Source: Deltaproteobacteria bacterium (GTDB lineage Bacteria; Myxococcota_A; Polyangia; Haliangiales; Haliangiaceae). Taken from it: a stretch of DNA of 50,544 nt. The DNA lies in contig JACCRC010000284.1 in assembly GCA_013813765.1 (NCBI GenBank), positions 1 to 50,544 on the forward strand. Direction: 5' to 3'. The notes under the pieces are model-generated. The model had not been told where the DNA came from, did not search any database, and was given only the letters and a program-made list of their open reading frames with translations. The position numbers were made by a program, and so were the translations under genes. Shown here piece after piece: positions 1 to 26,720 of the stretch (its first letter is position 1; each line of letters begins with the position of its first letter).

Positions 1-4
1 GCAA

Positions 5-46
5 GGTCCGGCGAGCCGGACCGCGCAGCACCGCCGGAGGCGGTGC
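5..46. repeat. Bipartite hairpin repeat, copy 1
   Basis: Two adjacent hairpins. Arms GGTCCGGC (5-12) and GCCGGACC (15-22) form the first. A GCGCA linker (23-27) follows, then arms GCACCGCC (28-35) and GGCGGTGC (39-46) around a GGA loop. It lies just past the 3' end of hisC. The same element occurs inverted at 26265-26307 with identical arms, and a relative with different arms is at 17312-17352. There is no U-tract, so a simple intrinsic terminator is less likely than a REP-like dispersed element. Confidence 0.75.
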
Positions 47-61
47 GAAGGTCGATCGCTC

Positions 62-12591: not shown

Positions 12592-13125
12592 ATGGCCTGG
12601 GTAAAGATCCCGAAGGAGAACCACCCGCTGTTCCACGCCGCGCTGCCGAAGGACAGACGCGTCTCGACGCTGAACATGTTCGGCGGCATCGCCGCGAAGG
12701 TGAACGGCAACATGTTCGGCGGTCTGTTCGGACACTCGGCGATCGTGAAGCTGTCACCGACCGATCAGACCGAAGCGCTCGCGCTCGACGGAGCGCAGCT
12801 GTTCGATCCGATGGGCAATGGCCGGCTGATGAAGGACACCGTGCACCTGCCGGAGTCGGTGATGGACGAGCCGGCCGAGCTCCGCGGCTGGCTGCAGAAG
12901 GCACTCGACTACACGTCGAAGCTTCCGGCGAAGAAGCCCAAGCCGGCGGCGAACAAGCCCGCGCCGAAGAAGCCCGCAGCGAAGAAGAAGCCCGCAGCGA
13001 AGAGGAAGCCCGCAGCGAAGAAGCAGCCGGCACCTGCAACGAAGAAGCCTGCGGCCAGGAACAAGTCCGCGACCAAGAAGCCGCCGCCTGCGAACAAGAA
13101 GCGCGCAGCGAAGAAGAAGCGCTAA
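12592..13125 (+). CDS. TfoX N-terminal domain protein with histone-H1-like tail
   Basis: 177 residues. Residues about 15-105 fit the TfoX N-terminal domain as found in stand-alone proteins (MFGGIAAKVNGNMFGGLFGHSAIVKLS, then FDPMGNGRLMKDTVHLPE). Residues about 111-177 are a Lys/Ala/Pro tail with repeats such as KKPAAKKKPAAKRKPAAKK, as in bacterial histone-H1-like proteins and AlgP. The tail is expected to be disordered and to bind nucleic acid non-specifically. TfoX-N alone does not imply competence control. It follows truC by 6 bases and is the last gene of the plus-strand run. The DNA repeats of the tail (AAGCCCGCAGCGAAG) are prone to copy-number change. Confidence 0.85.
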   Translation: MAWVKIPKENHPLFHAALPKDRRVSTLNMFGGIAAKVNGNMFGGLFGHSAIVKLSPTDQTEALALDGAQLFDPMGNGRLMKDTVHLPESVMDEPAELRGWLQKALDYTSKLPAKKPKPAANKPAPKKPAAKKKPAAKRKPAAKKQPAPATKKPAARNKSATKKPPPANKKRAAKKKR

Positions 13126-13168
13126 CGGCACAGCTGGAGCTCGTTTTGACGGCCCGGAGCGCGCGAGC

Positions 13169-16864: not shown

Positions 16865-17257
16865 TCAGGCGACGAGCGTGTCGTCGAGCTCGCGGACACT
16901 CATGTCGAGCACGGCCCAGATCACGGCGGCGATCACGGTCGCGACCGCGTCGGCCTCCTGCGGCAGCAGCACGACATTGAGCTCCTCGATCTGATCGCGT
17001 AGCGAGCGCACCATCGCGCGATCGCACTTGCCCCCGCGCACCGCGGCGAGCCCGACAGCGAGCGACTGGTGATCGAGCCGCATGTCACCGACGGGGGTGC
17101 GCCCACCGAGGACCCGGCACGCGAGCTCGAGGCCCGCGGCGAACGCATCGTTGTCGTCCGTGGCCAGCTCGCGCTCGAGCAAGCGCATCACGGCGGGCTG
17201 TCGGATGGCGAGCCAGCTCACGTCGTGCTCGGCGAGCTCCTGATGATTTCCGATCAT
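16865..17257 (-). CDS. Unknown helical protein, first gene of the 17.3-13.4 kb run
   Basis: 130 residues from ATG 17257. Predicted mainly helical with repeated Leu/Ala heptads (AVMRLLERELATDDNDAFAAGLELACRVL; MVRSLRDQIEELNVVLLPQEADAVATVIAAV). The last 35 residues are hydrophobic but interrupted by acidic residues, so a membrane segment is uncertain. No domain is recognised. An alternative longer frame (to 17752) lies inside the thiolase gene on the other strand and is not credible. It diverges from the thiolase across the hairpin repeat at 17312-17352. Confidence 0.65.
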   Translation of the reverse strand: MIGNHQELAEHDVSWLAIRQPAVMRLLERELATDDNDAFAAGLELACRVLGGRTPVGDMRLDHQSLAVGLAAVRGGKCDRAMVRSLRDQIEELNVVLLPQEADAVATVIAAVIWAVLDMSVRELDDTLVA

Positions 17258-17311
17258 CCCTGACCCTACGCACCGCTCATTCTCACGCGCCAGTTTTCGG
17301 CGTCTACCTTC

Positions 17312-17352
17312 GCAACGCTTCGCGTTGCTGCGCGCCCCACCGAAGGTGGGAC
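17312..17352. repeat. Bipartite hairpin repeat, copy 2 (different stem arms)
   Basis: Arms GCAACGC/GCGTTGC around a TTC loop (17312-17328), linker TGCGC (17329-17333), then CCCACC/GGTGGG around GAA (17336-17350). Flanks CCTTC before and ACTTGC after match copy 1 read on the minus strand, but the stem arms differ completely while pairing is kept. The 3' arm GGTGGG is also the probable ribosome-binding site of the thiolase gene. Confidence 0.65.
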
Positions 17353-17357
17353 TTGCT

Positions 17358-18575
<1,218 letters not shown>

Positions 18576-23524: not shown

Positions 23525-25440
23525 ACGAGCAGGCGCACGCCGGCGACCGGCACGCTGACCTTGCCGCTGGTGACGTGGAACGTCTCGCCGGTGAACGGAT
23601 CGCGCAGCGCCGAGCGCTCGTCGGCGAGGAGCACCGCGGTTGCCGGTTTGCCGTCGTTGACGAGGAAGATCGCGCGCGCCGTGCCAGCCGCGTCGGCGTA
23701 CGCGAAGCAGCGCACTGTATCGGGCCGCTCGACCTGCCACGTTTCGGGCAGCTCGCCCGCGAGCGCAGACAGATCCTCGGCGAGCCCCGGGATGTCATCG
23801 AGCGAGCCCTCGCGGATCTTGCCGATCCGGCGCGGCAGCGGCTCCACGTAGGGCTGGTCGAGCTCGTCATGCACCGGCGTGCCCGGACCGATCACGACGA
23901 CCGCGCGCTTGTGCTCGGCGAGCGCGCGCAGCCGGATCGCGAGGCCGCGGTCGAGGCGCGTCGTGGTCGGTACGATCACCGCGCGGAACCGAGCGAGCTC
24001 GTCCTCGGTCGCCGCCTCGTCGATGATCGCGTACGGCACCTGCGCGAGCTCCAGCGCCGCGCAGATCGCCGCATGCCATCGACGCGCAGCGAGCGCCGCG
24101 GCATCCGTGCCGAGCTCCGCGGCTCCAGCGTGTCCGAGGCCGAGCACCTCGGCGAGCACCGGCGTCATCGGATCGACGGCGTTCGTGGCGAGACCGAACC
24201 GTGCATCGGCGCGCGTATCGACGAGCGCGATCGGAACCGTGCGGCGCAGCGACGGCCAGTCGATGTCCGCGAGCGTCGAGGTCAGCTGCGGGATCCACTT
24301 CGCGTGTGGCTCCGCGACGCCGTCCTTCGTGATCGCCGCACCGAACCAGCGGTCCCGCTCGACGGCCATGTACAGGTTGAAGCCGCGCATTCCGCCGGAG
24401 AGCAGCGTCAGCAGGTGGTCGCGCTCGCGCTGCGGATCGTCGCCGGCGTCGAGGGGCGGAAACCACGGGAAGAACCCGACGCCGATCTCGAAGGCGATCG
24501 GCACCGGCGATGCGACGGTCGCGACCTGGATCGCGCGGCGTCGGAGCTCGCGGAATTCAGCGCGCGGGGTGTACGCATCGAGACCGACCGGGCCGTGGAT
24601 CGCGTGCTGCGCGCCGCGAAGGTCGGAGAGTCCCAGTGGACCGGGCGGCAGGTTGTGAAACCGCGCGATACCGCGGAAGCCGACGTCGTCGAGCGCGTGC
24701 GCGAACATTCCGAGCGCGCGCGAGAGGTACTGCTCCTTGAATCGCACCCACGAGATGCAGCGCCCCACGTCCGCCGGGTCCCACGCGCGCGGCGGCGTGC
24801 CCTCGATGCCCGATGCCTCGTGCCACCAGGTGACTGCTTCCGGGTGGTAGTCGAGATCGTAGGGCCCGAGCCGGAAGAACATCTGCGCTTCGTTGTCGAC
24901 GCCGAGCGCGACGACGGGTCCCTCGGGCGCGAGGTGCGGAGCCGCGATCCGCGCGACCTCCGCGAACCAGGCCTTCACCTTCGCGTGGAAGGCCGCGCTC
25001 GCATAGGACGGCAGCGGCCACGCGCGCGGCGGCGATGGAAGCCACGCCGGCGTGCCGTGCGCGGTGCGTGCCTGGATCGCGGGATCCGCGAGCAGGTGAT
25101 CGGGAAACCCGAACGCGGTCAGCTCCGCGTTGATGTGGGGGCCCGGCCGCAGCACCACGGAGAGCCCGGCCGCGCGCGCCAGCTCGAGGAACTTCGCGAG
25201 GTCGTTCGCGCCGCTCCAGTCGTACTGGCCCGGTGCGGGCTCGTGCACGCGCCACGGCACGTAGGTCTCGACGCAGGTCAGCCCGAGCGCGTGGATCGCC
25301 TTCAAGCACGCGGCCCAGCGCGTCGGATCGACGCGCCAGTAGTGCATCGCGCCGGCGTAGAACGGCAGTCGCCGCTCGCCGCTCGGACCGATGACGATCA
25401 GCCCGCGTTCGTCGAACCGGGTGCGCTGACGTGCTTCCAC
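23521..25440 (-). CDS. GH35-family beta-galactosidase
   Basis: 639 residues. The N-terminal TIM barrel shows family features: FYAGAMHYWRVDPTRWAACL, GLTCVETYVPWRVHEPAPG, VVLRPGPHINAE, the acid/base Glu in VVALGVDNEAQMF, and a probable nucleophile Glu in PIAFEIGVGFFPWF. No signal peptide is seen, so it is probably cytosolic. It should hydrolyse terminal beta-galactosides. The chosen start is GTG 25440 because GGAGG lies 7 bases upstream. It makes a 43-base overlap with the end of the Nudix gene, and the two are likely co-translated. No sugar transporter or regulator is adjacent. Confidence 0.88.
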   Translation of the reverse strand: MEARQRTRFDERGLIVIGPSGERRLPFYAGAMHYWRVDPTRWAACLKAIHALGLTCVETYVPWRVHEPAPGQYDWSGANDLAKFLELARAAGLSVVLRPGPHINAELTAFGFPDHLLADPAIQARTAHGTPAWLPSPPRAWPLPSYASAAFHAKVKAWFAEVARIAAPHLAPEGPVVALGVDNEAQMFFRLGPYDLDYHPEAVTWWHEASGIEGTPPRAWDPADVGRCISWVRFKEQYLSRALGMFAHALDDVGFRGIARFHNLPPGPLGLSDLRGAQHAIHGPVGLDAYTPRAEFRELRRRAIQVATVASPVPIAFEIGVGFFPWFPPLDAGDDPQRERDHLLTLLSGGMRGFNLYMAVERDRWFGAAITKDGVAEPHAKWIPQLTSTLADIDWPSLRRTVPIALVDTRADARFGLATNAVDPMTPVLAEVLGLGHAGAAELGTDAAALAARRWHAAICAALELAQVPYAIIDEAATEDELARFRAVIVPTTTRLDRGLAIRLRALAEHKRAVVVIGPGTPVHDELDQPYVEPLPRRIGKIREGSLDDIPGLAEDLSALAGELPETWQVERPDTVRCFAYADAAGTARAIFLVNDGKPATAVLLADERSALRDPFTGETFHVTSGKVSVPVAGVRLLV

Positions 25441-26231
25441 GTGCGGTCCTCCAGGACGAAGCGGCTCGGGCCGCGCGCCCACGCGGGCTGGTAGTTCAGC
25501 GGTGCACTGTCACCGCTCGCGCCGTCGACGTACGCGGGATCCCACGGGAGCAGCAGCGTCACGCCCTTGTCGCCGGTCGTGAACTGTTTCAGTCGCGGAA
25601 GGATCGGGAACGGCTCGTCGGCGCGCTGCTTCGCGGCCGCGAGCACGCGCTCGATCGTCGGATGCTCCGCGAGCTCCCACATCGTCCGGAGCTGCGGCGG
25701 CGGCAACGCGAGCTCGCCCGCGCGTGCGATCGCATCCTTGGGCGTCACCCAGGTCTGCTCGACGGTCTCGATGTCATCAAAGCTCGGATCCTGGCCGCTG
25801 GGCAGCTCGCAGACGAAGAATCGCGCGGAGAAGCGCTTCGGCTCGATCGACGGCGTGATCCAGTGCGACCACGGCGCGAGCACATCGGTCCACCAGCCGA
25901 GCCCCGACGCGGCGAGCACCGCGGTCGCGTCCATGCCGCCGAGCACCTTCTTGCGCAGGCCATCGACCGACATGATCTGCCCATCGGCGAGCGTCTCGAT
26001 GTCGCCGCCGGTGTCCTTCGCCAGCAGCACGCCGGCTTCCTCGAACAGCTCGCGCGCCGCGCAGGTGCGCGCATCCTCGTTCGCGTCGGCGCCGCCGCCG
26101 GGAAACACGAACGCTGAGGCCATGAACGATGCGCCCTTGCGCCGCCGCAGCAGGAGCACCTCGAAGCCCGCCGGCTGCGCGCGCCGCAGCAGGATCACGG
26201 ACGAGGCTTCGCGGAGCGGCGTCGCGGTCAC
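25398..26231 (-). CDS. Nudix hydrolase
   Basis: 277 residues, GTG start. The Nudix box is complete: G-x5-E-x7-REL-x-EEAG (GGADANEDARTCAARELFEEAG). The N-terminus (SSVILLRRAQPAGFEVLLLRR, then FVFPGGG) is standard. The C-terminal half, about 150 residues, is longer than in small MutT-like enzymes and matches the long Nudix group often annotated as NUDT19/CoA-pyrophosphatase-like; the substrate is not certain. The start follows the hairpin repeat at 26265-26307. Confidence 0.9.
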   Translation of the reverse strand: MTATPLREASSVILLRRAQPAGFEVLLLRRRKGASFMASAFVFPGGGADANEDARTCAARELFEEAGVLLAKDTGGDIETLADGQIMSVDGLRKKVLGGMDATAVLAASGLGWWTDVLAPWSHWITPSIEPKRFSARFFVCELPSGQDPSFDDIETVEQTWVTPKDAIARAGELALPPPQLRTMWELAEHPTIERVLAAAKQRADEPFPILPRLKQFTTGDKGVTLLLPWDPAYVDGASGDSAPLNYQPAWARGPSRFVLEDRTWKHVSAPGSTNAG

Positions 26232-26264
26232 GACGACGTTCCTACCACGGTCGATCGACTCTGC

Positions 26265-26307
26265 GCACCGCCTTCGGCGGTGCTGCGCGGTCCGGCAGAG
26301 CCGGACC
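26265..26307. repeat. Bipartite hairpin repeat, copy 3 (inverted relative to copy 1)
   Basis: GCACCGCC/GGCGGTGC around TTC (26265-26283), linker TGCGC (26284-26288), then GGTCCGGC/GCCGGACC around AGA (26289-26307). The arms are identical to copy 1 read on the other strand. The loops differ (TTC and AGA here; TCC and TC in copy 1 on the same strand). It begins 3 bases past the stop of the gene at 26310-26720 and lies upstream of the Nudix start. Confidence 0.75.
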
Positions 26308-26309
26308 TT

Positions 26310-26720
26310 TCAGTCGATACGGACTTCGCCGCGAATCGGCTCGTCGTCGAGACCGAGCCAGTCCTCGATCTGCCGCTCGACGAAGCGCGCGACGCGTCCC
26401 TCCGGAGTCTCGAGCACGAGCCGATCGGCGCGGCCTCGCCGGCGCGCGAATACGCCGAACCAGGTGAGAAACCCCGAGCGTGGCTGCCGCTCGACGACGA
26501 ACAGCGCATCGATGGCGCCGGCACCGAGCACGAAGGCGTCGCTGCCCTCGTGGACTTCGATCGCGATGTCGTCGACCTCGATCACGACATCGAACGGATC
26601 ACCTCCGCGCGGCGTGACGGCGACGCGGATCCGCAGCGTGTCCTTGCCGGTCTCGATGCCGCGATACGGACTGCGCAGACGCAGCTCGTTCGATATCGTC
26701 TCCATCGAGACGTTTCGCAT
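26310..26720 (-). CDS. Unknown beta-rich protein
   Basis: 136 residues from ATG 26720; Met6 (26705) is an alternative. The sequence alternates strands (LRIRVAVTPRGGDPFDVVIEVDDIAIEVHEG; AIDALFVVERQPRSGFLTWFGVF) with a basic patch ARRRGRADR and a C-terminal helix (EGRVARFVERQIEDWLGLDDE). No family is recognised and there is no signal peptide. Its start overlaps the DoxX stop by one base (TGATG). Confidence 0.7.
   Translation of the reverse strand: MRNVSMETISNELRLRSPYRGIETGKDTLRIRVAVTPRGGDPFDVVIEVDDIAIEVHEGSDAFVLGAGAIDALFVVERQPRSGFLTWFGVFARRRGRADRLVLETPEGRVARFVERQIEDWLGLDDEPIRGEVRID

Follow-up and report, generated by a model that had tools for sequence, protein, structure and literature searches.

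The window analysed here is a stretch of 50,544 nucleotides from a Deltaproteobacteria bacterium of the family Haliangiaceae (contig JACCRC010000284.1 of assembly GCA_013813765.1, forward strand), and it contains three copies of a short element built of two unlike hairpins (Table 1). They lie where the original prediction had placed them, at 5-46, 17312-17352 and 26265-26307, and fold as it described, with copy 1 in the reverse orientation to copies 2 and 3. The stems of copy 1 (5-46) are GGTCCGG/CCGGACC and GCACCGCC/GGCGGTGC, and those of copy 3 (26265-26307) are GCACCGCC/GGCGGTGC and GGTCCGGC/GCCGGACC. Copy 2 had been singled out for stems that are altered and still paired, and we found exactly these (GCAACGC/GCGTTGC and CCCACC/GGTGGG, 17312-17350). 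Variants resembling copy 2 were seen at L074, L015:2793 and L072, and at L061 hairpin 1 occurs alone. Copy 1 lies at the contig edge (window position 1), and several other copies are likewise found at contig ends, which would be expected had repeats or arrays interrupted the assembly. Genes were called with a codon-score caller trained on the window. One of them, at 12592-13125, carries in its 3' part (about 12915-13138) an 18-nt repeat coding for a Lys/Ala/Pro-rich tail, which we take to be similar to histone H1-type tails.

Table 1 Positions of the three element copies, their parts and their neighbouring genes in the window
Feature	Position	Strand	Details
Copy 1 of the element	1..57	-	Covariance-model match C314:1-57:-, E 5.8e-18
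Copy 1 layout	54-57 (GATC)	-	GATCGACCTTC-hairpin 1-TGCGC-hairpin 2-TTGC; TTGC end at contig edge
Copy 1 hairpin 1	28..46	-	8-bp stem, 3-nt loop
Copy 1 linker	23-27	-	TGCGC, joining both hairpins
Copy 1 hairpin 2	5..22	-	7-bp stem, 4-nt loop
Copy 2, variant (GCAACGC / CCCACC stems)	17301..17360	+	Model match E 2.3e-15
Copy 2 hairpin 1	17312..17328	+	7-bp stem, loop TTC
Copy 2 hairpin 2 core	17336..17350	+	6-bp stem on the plus strand; 8 pairs including one wobble when the minus strand is folded
Copy 2 neighbours	16865-17257; 17358-18575	-; +	Divergent genes called
Copy 3	26253..26315	+	Model match E 1.3e-18
Copy 3 hairpin 1	26265..26283	+	8-bp stem, loop TTC
Copy 3 hairpin 2	26289..26307	+	8-bp stem, loop AGA
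Copy 3 neighbours	25398-26231; 26310-26705	-; -	Tandem genes called; outer letters of the copy overlap the stop codon of the gene at 26310-26705

Copies in the genome and the genus

The genome from which the window comes (hereafter the own genome) is an 8.1-Mb draft in 562 contigs. Searching it by blastn with a 60-nt query from the copy at 26265 gave 46 matches, of which the best, apart from the query, had E 1.7e-15. With a covariance model made from 41 copies, 82 matches were obtained at E<=0.01, 79 of which were below 1e-4. Across 56 genomes at E<=0.001, the congener G003 had 71 matches, another congener had 6 and the other 13 genomes of the genus had between 0 and 3. Four genomes outside the genus, among these 56, gave one weak match each (E 4.7e-5 to 9.4e-4), and among 35 genomes of the order searched separately, the 19 outside the genus gave no match at E<=1e-6. 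The model search thus bore out the expectation of a dispersed, REP-like element with many further copies. A 35-letter pattern searched against named genomes was found in 7 stretches, all of them in 'Myxococcales bacterium isolate new MAG-80', which we take to be G003, in a search that may omit records near the window's own.

Most of the further work used 79 own copies (78 aligned ones plus L014:2039), leaving aside the three weakest of the 82 matches, and 57 of the 71 matches in G003. Both genomes are drafts of many contigs, in which copies at contig ends are cut. Comparison of the flanks of these 79 and 57 copies, which covers the copy-bearing loci of the two drafts, identified five places that match on both sides; the site of copy 3 is also filled in G003 (L091). 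With so few places in common, most insertions seem younger than the split of the two species.

Anatomy of the unit

With hairpin 1 placed first, the unit reads (GATC or similar)-N-ACCTNC, hairpin 1 (GCACCGCC nnn GGCGGTGC), TGCGC, hairpin 2 (GGYCCGGC nnn GCCGGRCC), TTGC and (GATC or other). The two hairpins and the TGCGC linker had been predicted; the motif proved wider than that, with ACCTNC 5' of hairpin 1, TTGC 3' of hairpin 2 and often GATC outside one or both ends. In the 41 aligned copies, ACCTNC, TGCGC and TTGC are about as well conserved as the stems. Most copies measure 56-59 nt from the left tetranucleotide to TTGC, that is, about 53 nt plus a GATC-like tetranucleotide, and at some loci (C232, C201, C298) copies form tandem arrays of period near 58, with GATC, TGTC or CATC as junction letters. 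A large share of copies have GATC as their outer left tetranucleotide. Many have GATC on both sides, a feature that is not general, and the two ends are unlike (ACCTNC versus TTGC). In copies with CGTC-like left ends the right tetranucleotide is mostly unlike the left, so that a clean target duplication is not general either. For comparison, a MITE of a DDE transposon is marked by terminal inverted repeats together with a target duplication.

Both strands of the element fold well, and its loops are polarized. Hairpin 1 loops, obtained from 69 of the 79 own copies, include TTC (26), TCC (9) and TGC (6), with none of the inverted forms, and hairpin 2 loops (75 of 79 copies) include 31 of the AGA, AAA, GAA and GGA type versus a single TCC. 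Some four-letter loops of hairpin 2 occur in both orientations (CTCG 17 and CGAG 2, CAAG 6 and CTTG 2 in the own genome; CTCG 3 and CGAG 4 in the congener).

We also noted shortened copies (L038:2004-2109, L082:1589, L083:1540) in which hairpin 1 is incomplete, for example GCACCGCTGCGCGGTCGG, as though a deletion had occurred between GCACCGC and TGCGCGG. One variant of the stems, GCACTCCC/GGGAGTGC with CCCGACG/CGTCGGG, was found at L078:810, L080:1588 and L053:1501 (G015). Its presence in both the own genome and the congener G015 is a hint that the family predates the two rich genomes.

Covariation of the stems and its cause

Compensatory changes in the stems, anticipated from the three window copies, are strong across the family: 15 of the 16 stem pairs show two-sided changes in 78 own copies. 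In these copies 96.3% of cells pair, and the covariation score was 0.271 compared with 0.082 in shuffles and at most 0.069 with slid partners. The same picture emerged from the congener set, five copies of which come from other congeners. The alignments of own and congener copies had been made to the model and are biased in its favour; in an unfitted MAFFT alignment of 41 copies, two-sided changes were present at 10 of 16 pairs.

Four orthologous sites occupied in both species by a like-oriented element show that pairing has been kept in place. Here stems differ at 8 of 124 letters and unpaired letters at 34 of 123; when outer letters are excluded the contrast is 8 of 124 against 21 of 87 inner unpaired letters (p=4e-4). 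The eight stem differences amount to three two-sided A-T/G-C exchanges and two C-G/T-G wobbles.

Mispairs were then scored by type. On the plus strand, A-C exceeds G-T by 21 to 5 in the own genome and by 25 to 16 in the congener set (again including 5 copies of other congeners), and such an A-C excess corresponds to wobble pairing on the minus strand. This is a hint that folding takes place on the minus strand, from counts in which array copies are not independent of each other and the congener set alone is not convincing.

Covariation of this kind could also be a mutational artefact. Template switching during replication would copy one hairpin arm onto the other and keep them matched without selection, an explanation that concerns the covariation and not the identity of the element, and to which we give serious weight while placing it somewhat short of even. 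Template switching in hairpins can restore the pairing of palindromes (PMC8794818), and a template-switch mechanism has been described for coding genes (PMC8604942). It would account for two-sided changes outnumbering unpaired cells (105 versus 44), for the scarcity of G-T intermediates in the own genome and for those four-letter loops of hairpin 2 that occur both ways round, as switching from arm to arm would give. It also fits the shared sites, at which unpaired letters, unprotected by such repair, drift and stems do not. The three-letter loops, however, almost always keep one orientation, and the lean of mispairs to A-C over G-T, with its minus-strand wobble, speaks against it as well. The conserved ACCTNC, TGCGC and TTGC were not counted against template switching, as they may only reflect recent copying. 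Of the earlier proposal of selection on structure, the preserved pairing through paired changes is borne out. Selection and template-switch repair between arms can each keep pairing. Covariation in a dispersed repeat is, by itself, no evidence of a functional RNA.

Search for a mover

GTAG-tagged REPs are mobilized by RAYT transposases, and a link to such a gene had been put forward for the window copies. Y1_Tnp genes do exist (5 in the own genome, 2 in G003), but no copy was found at any of these 7 loci, in a model search over flanks that are short where contigs end and with Y1 as the one family searched. On two contigs a Y1 gene and a copy occur together, C175 with 3.4 kb between them and C12 with 21 kb. 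We consider it unlikely that the element is a canonical REP mobilized by a RAYT/Y1 transposase of its own genome. The presence of Y1 genes in both rich genomes and the two shared contigs would suit that explanation, as would the REPs of S. maltophilia, in which an 8-bp perfect palindrome with a 3-nt loop is cut single-stranded by a Y1 enzyme (PMC8266576). Against it stand the empty Y1 loci, the different repeat carried by those on C12 and C289, the congeners with 7-34 Y1 matches and only 0-6 element matches, and the lack of GTAG next to either stem.

The different repeat surrounds the Y1 genes at L046/L235 (G000:C289) and L047 (G000:C12) and consists of CCGCGCGAGAGCCAGCGC together with CCGAACC/GGTTCGG palindromes. 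Its copies are spaced 155-174 nt apart in L235, and repeated 16-mers number 112 in L235 and 60 in L047; it is perhaps a second REP family with a RAYT of its own. Another genome of the genus, G011, has 34 Y1_Tnp matches, several of them at contig ends, versus 5 and 2 in the element-rich genomes.

An autonomous parent was sought with patterns of the separate ends, which gave 76 left-end and 26 right-end matches, 34 and 18 of them being known copies. Among the non-copy matches, the 14 of 42 left-end and 7 of 8 right-end cases inspected were all unrelated and mostly coding-like.

Copies inside genes

Whereas the three window copies lie between genes, as had been stated for all copies, this does not hold for the family, which has members in frame inside genes. 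Of copies placed between coding flanks on one strand, 27 of 32 keep the frame (one third expected) and 25 are open throughout. Five are out of frame, and two contain a stop, one of these being the window copy at 26265, which lies between tandem genes. The 25 copies that are open and in frame (7 of 79 own, 18 of 57 congener) were counted from 136 copies, 11 of which are at contig edges and fall outside the frame test.

The seven hosts in the own genome are FtsK, PurH, a T3SS-type ATPase, a 2-oxoacid dehydrogenase E2, an Amidohydro_3 enzyme, a protein kinase and an Fe-ADH protein; among the hosts in the congener are a histidine kinase and a RecG-like helicase. Pfam searches covered 10 own genic proteins and 10 of the 20 from the congener, 3 of these latter 10 having no family. 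The insert lies within a single Pfam domain in PurH and the Amidohydro_3 enzyme; elsewhere among the own hosts it is found between domains, as in FtsK and the 2-oxoacid dehydrogenase E2, or else before or after them. A glycosyltransferase copy, added by eye, is also within a domain, and the same protein in G003 has no copy.

PurH offers the clearest view of empty and filled sites. In both rich species 19 extra codons follow KHNNPCGVA-I, and the sequence is uninterrupted in 11 congeners (14 loci read, 13 with the motif). PurH 3zzm, which we take to be the M. tuberculosis enzyme, has a gap where the insert lies. The net insertion is 57 nt for a copy length of 58 (left tetranucleotide to TTGC), and several of the empty sites contain GATCGA. 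Position, orientation and junction letters are the same in both PurH copies, which makes a single insertion the simplest reading; two of their stem pairs have changed on both sides since.

In ftsK the element lies between the same codons in both species (VPGPA ... AETVAASP) in opposite orientations, and ten other congeners have a variable linker without it (14 loci read; 12 shown, 2 with the element). This reflects either two insertions at one place or a flip of the element. GATC is its own complement, so the junctions can look alike whichever way the element lies. In recB, two Xanthomonas species have been reported to carry different REPs at about the same site (PMC3733652).

We asked how open the unit is to translation. 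Without its outer letters, the body has all six frames open in 59 of 79 own and in 46 of 57 congener copies; once they are included, the figures fall to 19 of 79 and 26 of 57, as compared with 17% in letter shuffles of the own copies. Six open frames are thus not a special design, and openness owes much to GC content.

Copies between genes

Extragenic copies beside the 3' end of a gene mostly touch its stop codon. With arrays collapsed, 31 of 37 own and 16 of 19 congener copies lie at most 12 bp from it, often overlapping. These counts treat 10 own and 20 congener copies as genic, namely the 25 in-frame ones plus five added by eye (L016, L060, L079, L182, L194), of which L060, ending at a contig end, and L079, near a C terminus, are weak cases. 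They exclude copies placed in an open reading frame by the caller (7 own, 11 congener), at edges (6 and 4) or far from genes (2 and 0).

Of 61 collapsed copies in the own genome, 17 have convergent, 20 tandem and 9 divergent neighbours, the rest being unclassified; gene pairs in the window number 6, 31 and 7, respectively. The congener has 1 convergent, 18 tandem and 2 divergent cases and thus no convergent excess. Within tandem pairs, orientations are split 15 to 5 in the own genome and 9 to 9 in the congener.

Such positions raise the possibility of a host RNA element of mRNA 3' ends, a terminator or exonuclease block kept for that use, with the genic copies as accidents. This too is improbable in our judgement. 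Contact with stop codons, over-representation of convergent pairs in the own genome, good folding of both strands and stems that are steadier than unpaired letters at shared sites are what it would lead one to expect. But an intrinsic terminator was rejected for the copy at 26265, with no T-run after its hairpins and 0 terminator-like sites in 26000-26600, and by eye no T-run follows the other copies displayed. Rfam gave no gathering-level match within the window. Further arguments against a host function are the missing convergent excess in the congener, the absence or scarcity of copies in most species of the genus, the twenty-five copies in frame inside genes and the same closeness to gene 3' ends in known REPs (PMC3733652).

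Discussion

We have described a two-hairpin unit of about 57 nt that occupies about 80 places in this genome and about 70 in one congener, has few places in common between them and is rare or absent elsewhere in the genus. Most of its extragenic copies beside gene 3' ends reach the stop codon, and most of those between coding flanks preserve the frame. We judge the element to be probably a non-autonomous, REP/RPE-like mobile DNA, with the distribution of its copies as the argument for mobility.

We class the element as a REP/RPE-like family; it lacks the tags that define the two described REP super-families, its unit is an asymmetric pair of hairpins, and a notable share of its copies is genic and in frame. 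Elements of the IS200/IS605 type and their miniature derivatives resemble ours in having hairpins near both ends, with conserved unpaired letters beside each. Guide tetranucleotides next to hairpins have been described (PMC8266576). Unlike those elements, the whole element here is about 57 nt, the matches inspected included no autonomous parent, and a cleavage site would be hypothetical. GTAG REPs and REPINs with a RAYT are likewise many-copy short hairpins near gene 3' ends that form stop codons at the element end and are sometimes intragenic. The present element differs in its two unlike hairpins, in the absence of a copy from any Y1 locus of the two rich genomes and in its flanking letters: in 41 aligned copies these are ACCTNC, TGCGC and TTGC on the plus strand and GCAA, GCGCA and GNAGGT on the minus strand, with GTAG absent beside the stems.

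CGTC REPs are defined by an unpaired CGTC (or TGTC, CCTC) directly next to a stem of 8-9 bp whose foot has A-T pairs (PMC3733652). Their stems of 8-9 bp, short loops, dimers (of unlike units in some families) and intragenic copies are close to what we see. They are not tied to a transposase gene; here, among the Y1 genes of the two rich genomes, none was flanked by a copy. Our element, in contrast, has neither a CGTC abutting the stem nor A-T pairs at the stem foot, its loops are mostly of 3-4 and not 4-5 letters, and it forms a fixed unit with a conserved linker; CGTC does occur as a variant of the outer left tetranucleotide, 7 nt from the stem.

The palindromic elements of Rickettsia (RPE-1, RPE-4, RPE-6) are also short palindromic repeats that lie both between genes and in frame in conserved genes and are unevenly spread among species (PMC2229807, PMC3733652). 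That lifestyle recurs here, with 25 in-frame copies, PurH and FtsK orthologues among their hosts, beside extragenic ones. The form does not: RPEs, as reviewed, are 105-146 bp long, with one long stem-loop made from terminal inverted repeats, whereas this element combines two separate hairpins of different sequence, each 15-20 nt, within about 57 nt and has GATC-like outer ends. The host range is also different, the genus of the element having one named member, a Myxococcales MAG. Among the papers listed from the open-access myxobacterial literature on REPs, miniature inverted-repeats and RAYT, none resembled the element, judged from titles and abstract openings.

The element works like known intragenic palindromic repeats, and most of its behaviours have precedent; new are the closeness of extragenic copies to stop codons (31/37, 16/19) and the 25 of 136 copies that are open and in frame. 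In-frame palindromic inserts have been known chiefly from Rickettsia and some REP-rich species such as Opitutus terrae (PMC3733652).

How might such a unit spread? The two sub-terminal hairpins, the polarity of the loops and the analogy with REP enzymes suggest a single-strand mechanism. The unit would move as a folded single strand, recognized by an enzyme acting in trans, for which the HUH/Y1-like type is the nearest known, and would join preferentially at GATC-like sites. Insertions that spare the host may be those that survive, either after a stop codon or as 19 codons added in frame, and a GC-rich body with few stop codons in any frame would help survival inside genes. We are doubtful of the more ambitious proposition that this is a self-spreading double-hairpin unit adapted to protein genes, with few stops, a net multiple of three reached via differing small changes, GATC joins that fit either orientation, re-insertion or a flip at one ftsK codon and a single-strand enzyme that reads loop polarity.

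That GC-rich hairpins are merely alike by chance can be dismissed, because although neighbouring perfect hairpin pairs in the window (68% GC) are nearly as common in ten Markov shuffles (10 versus 2-9), so that the window alone is little proof, the genome counts (46 blastn and 82 model matches) and the conserved unpaired motifs rule it out.

The repeats described here, probably mobile, form a separate family in another lineage, with both shared and unshared sites in two sister species, and this makes several questions testable: what moves palindromic repeats that carry no known tag, how PurH-type enzymes tolerate 19 inserted residues, and whether stem covariation arises by selection or by template switching.
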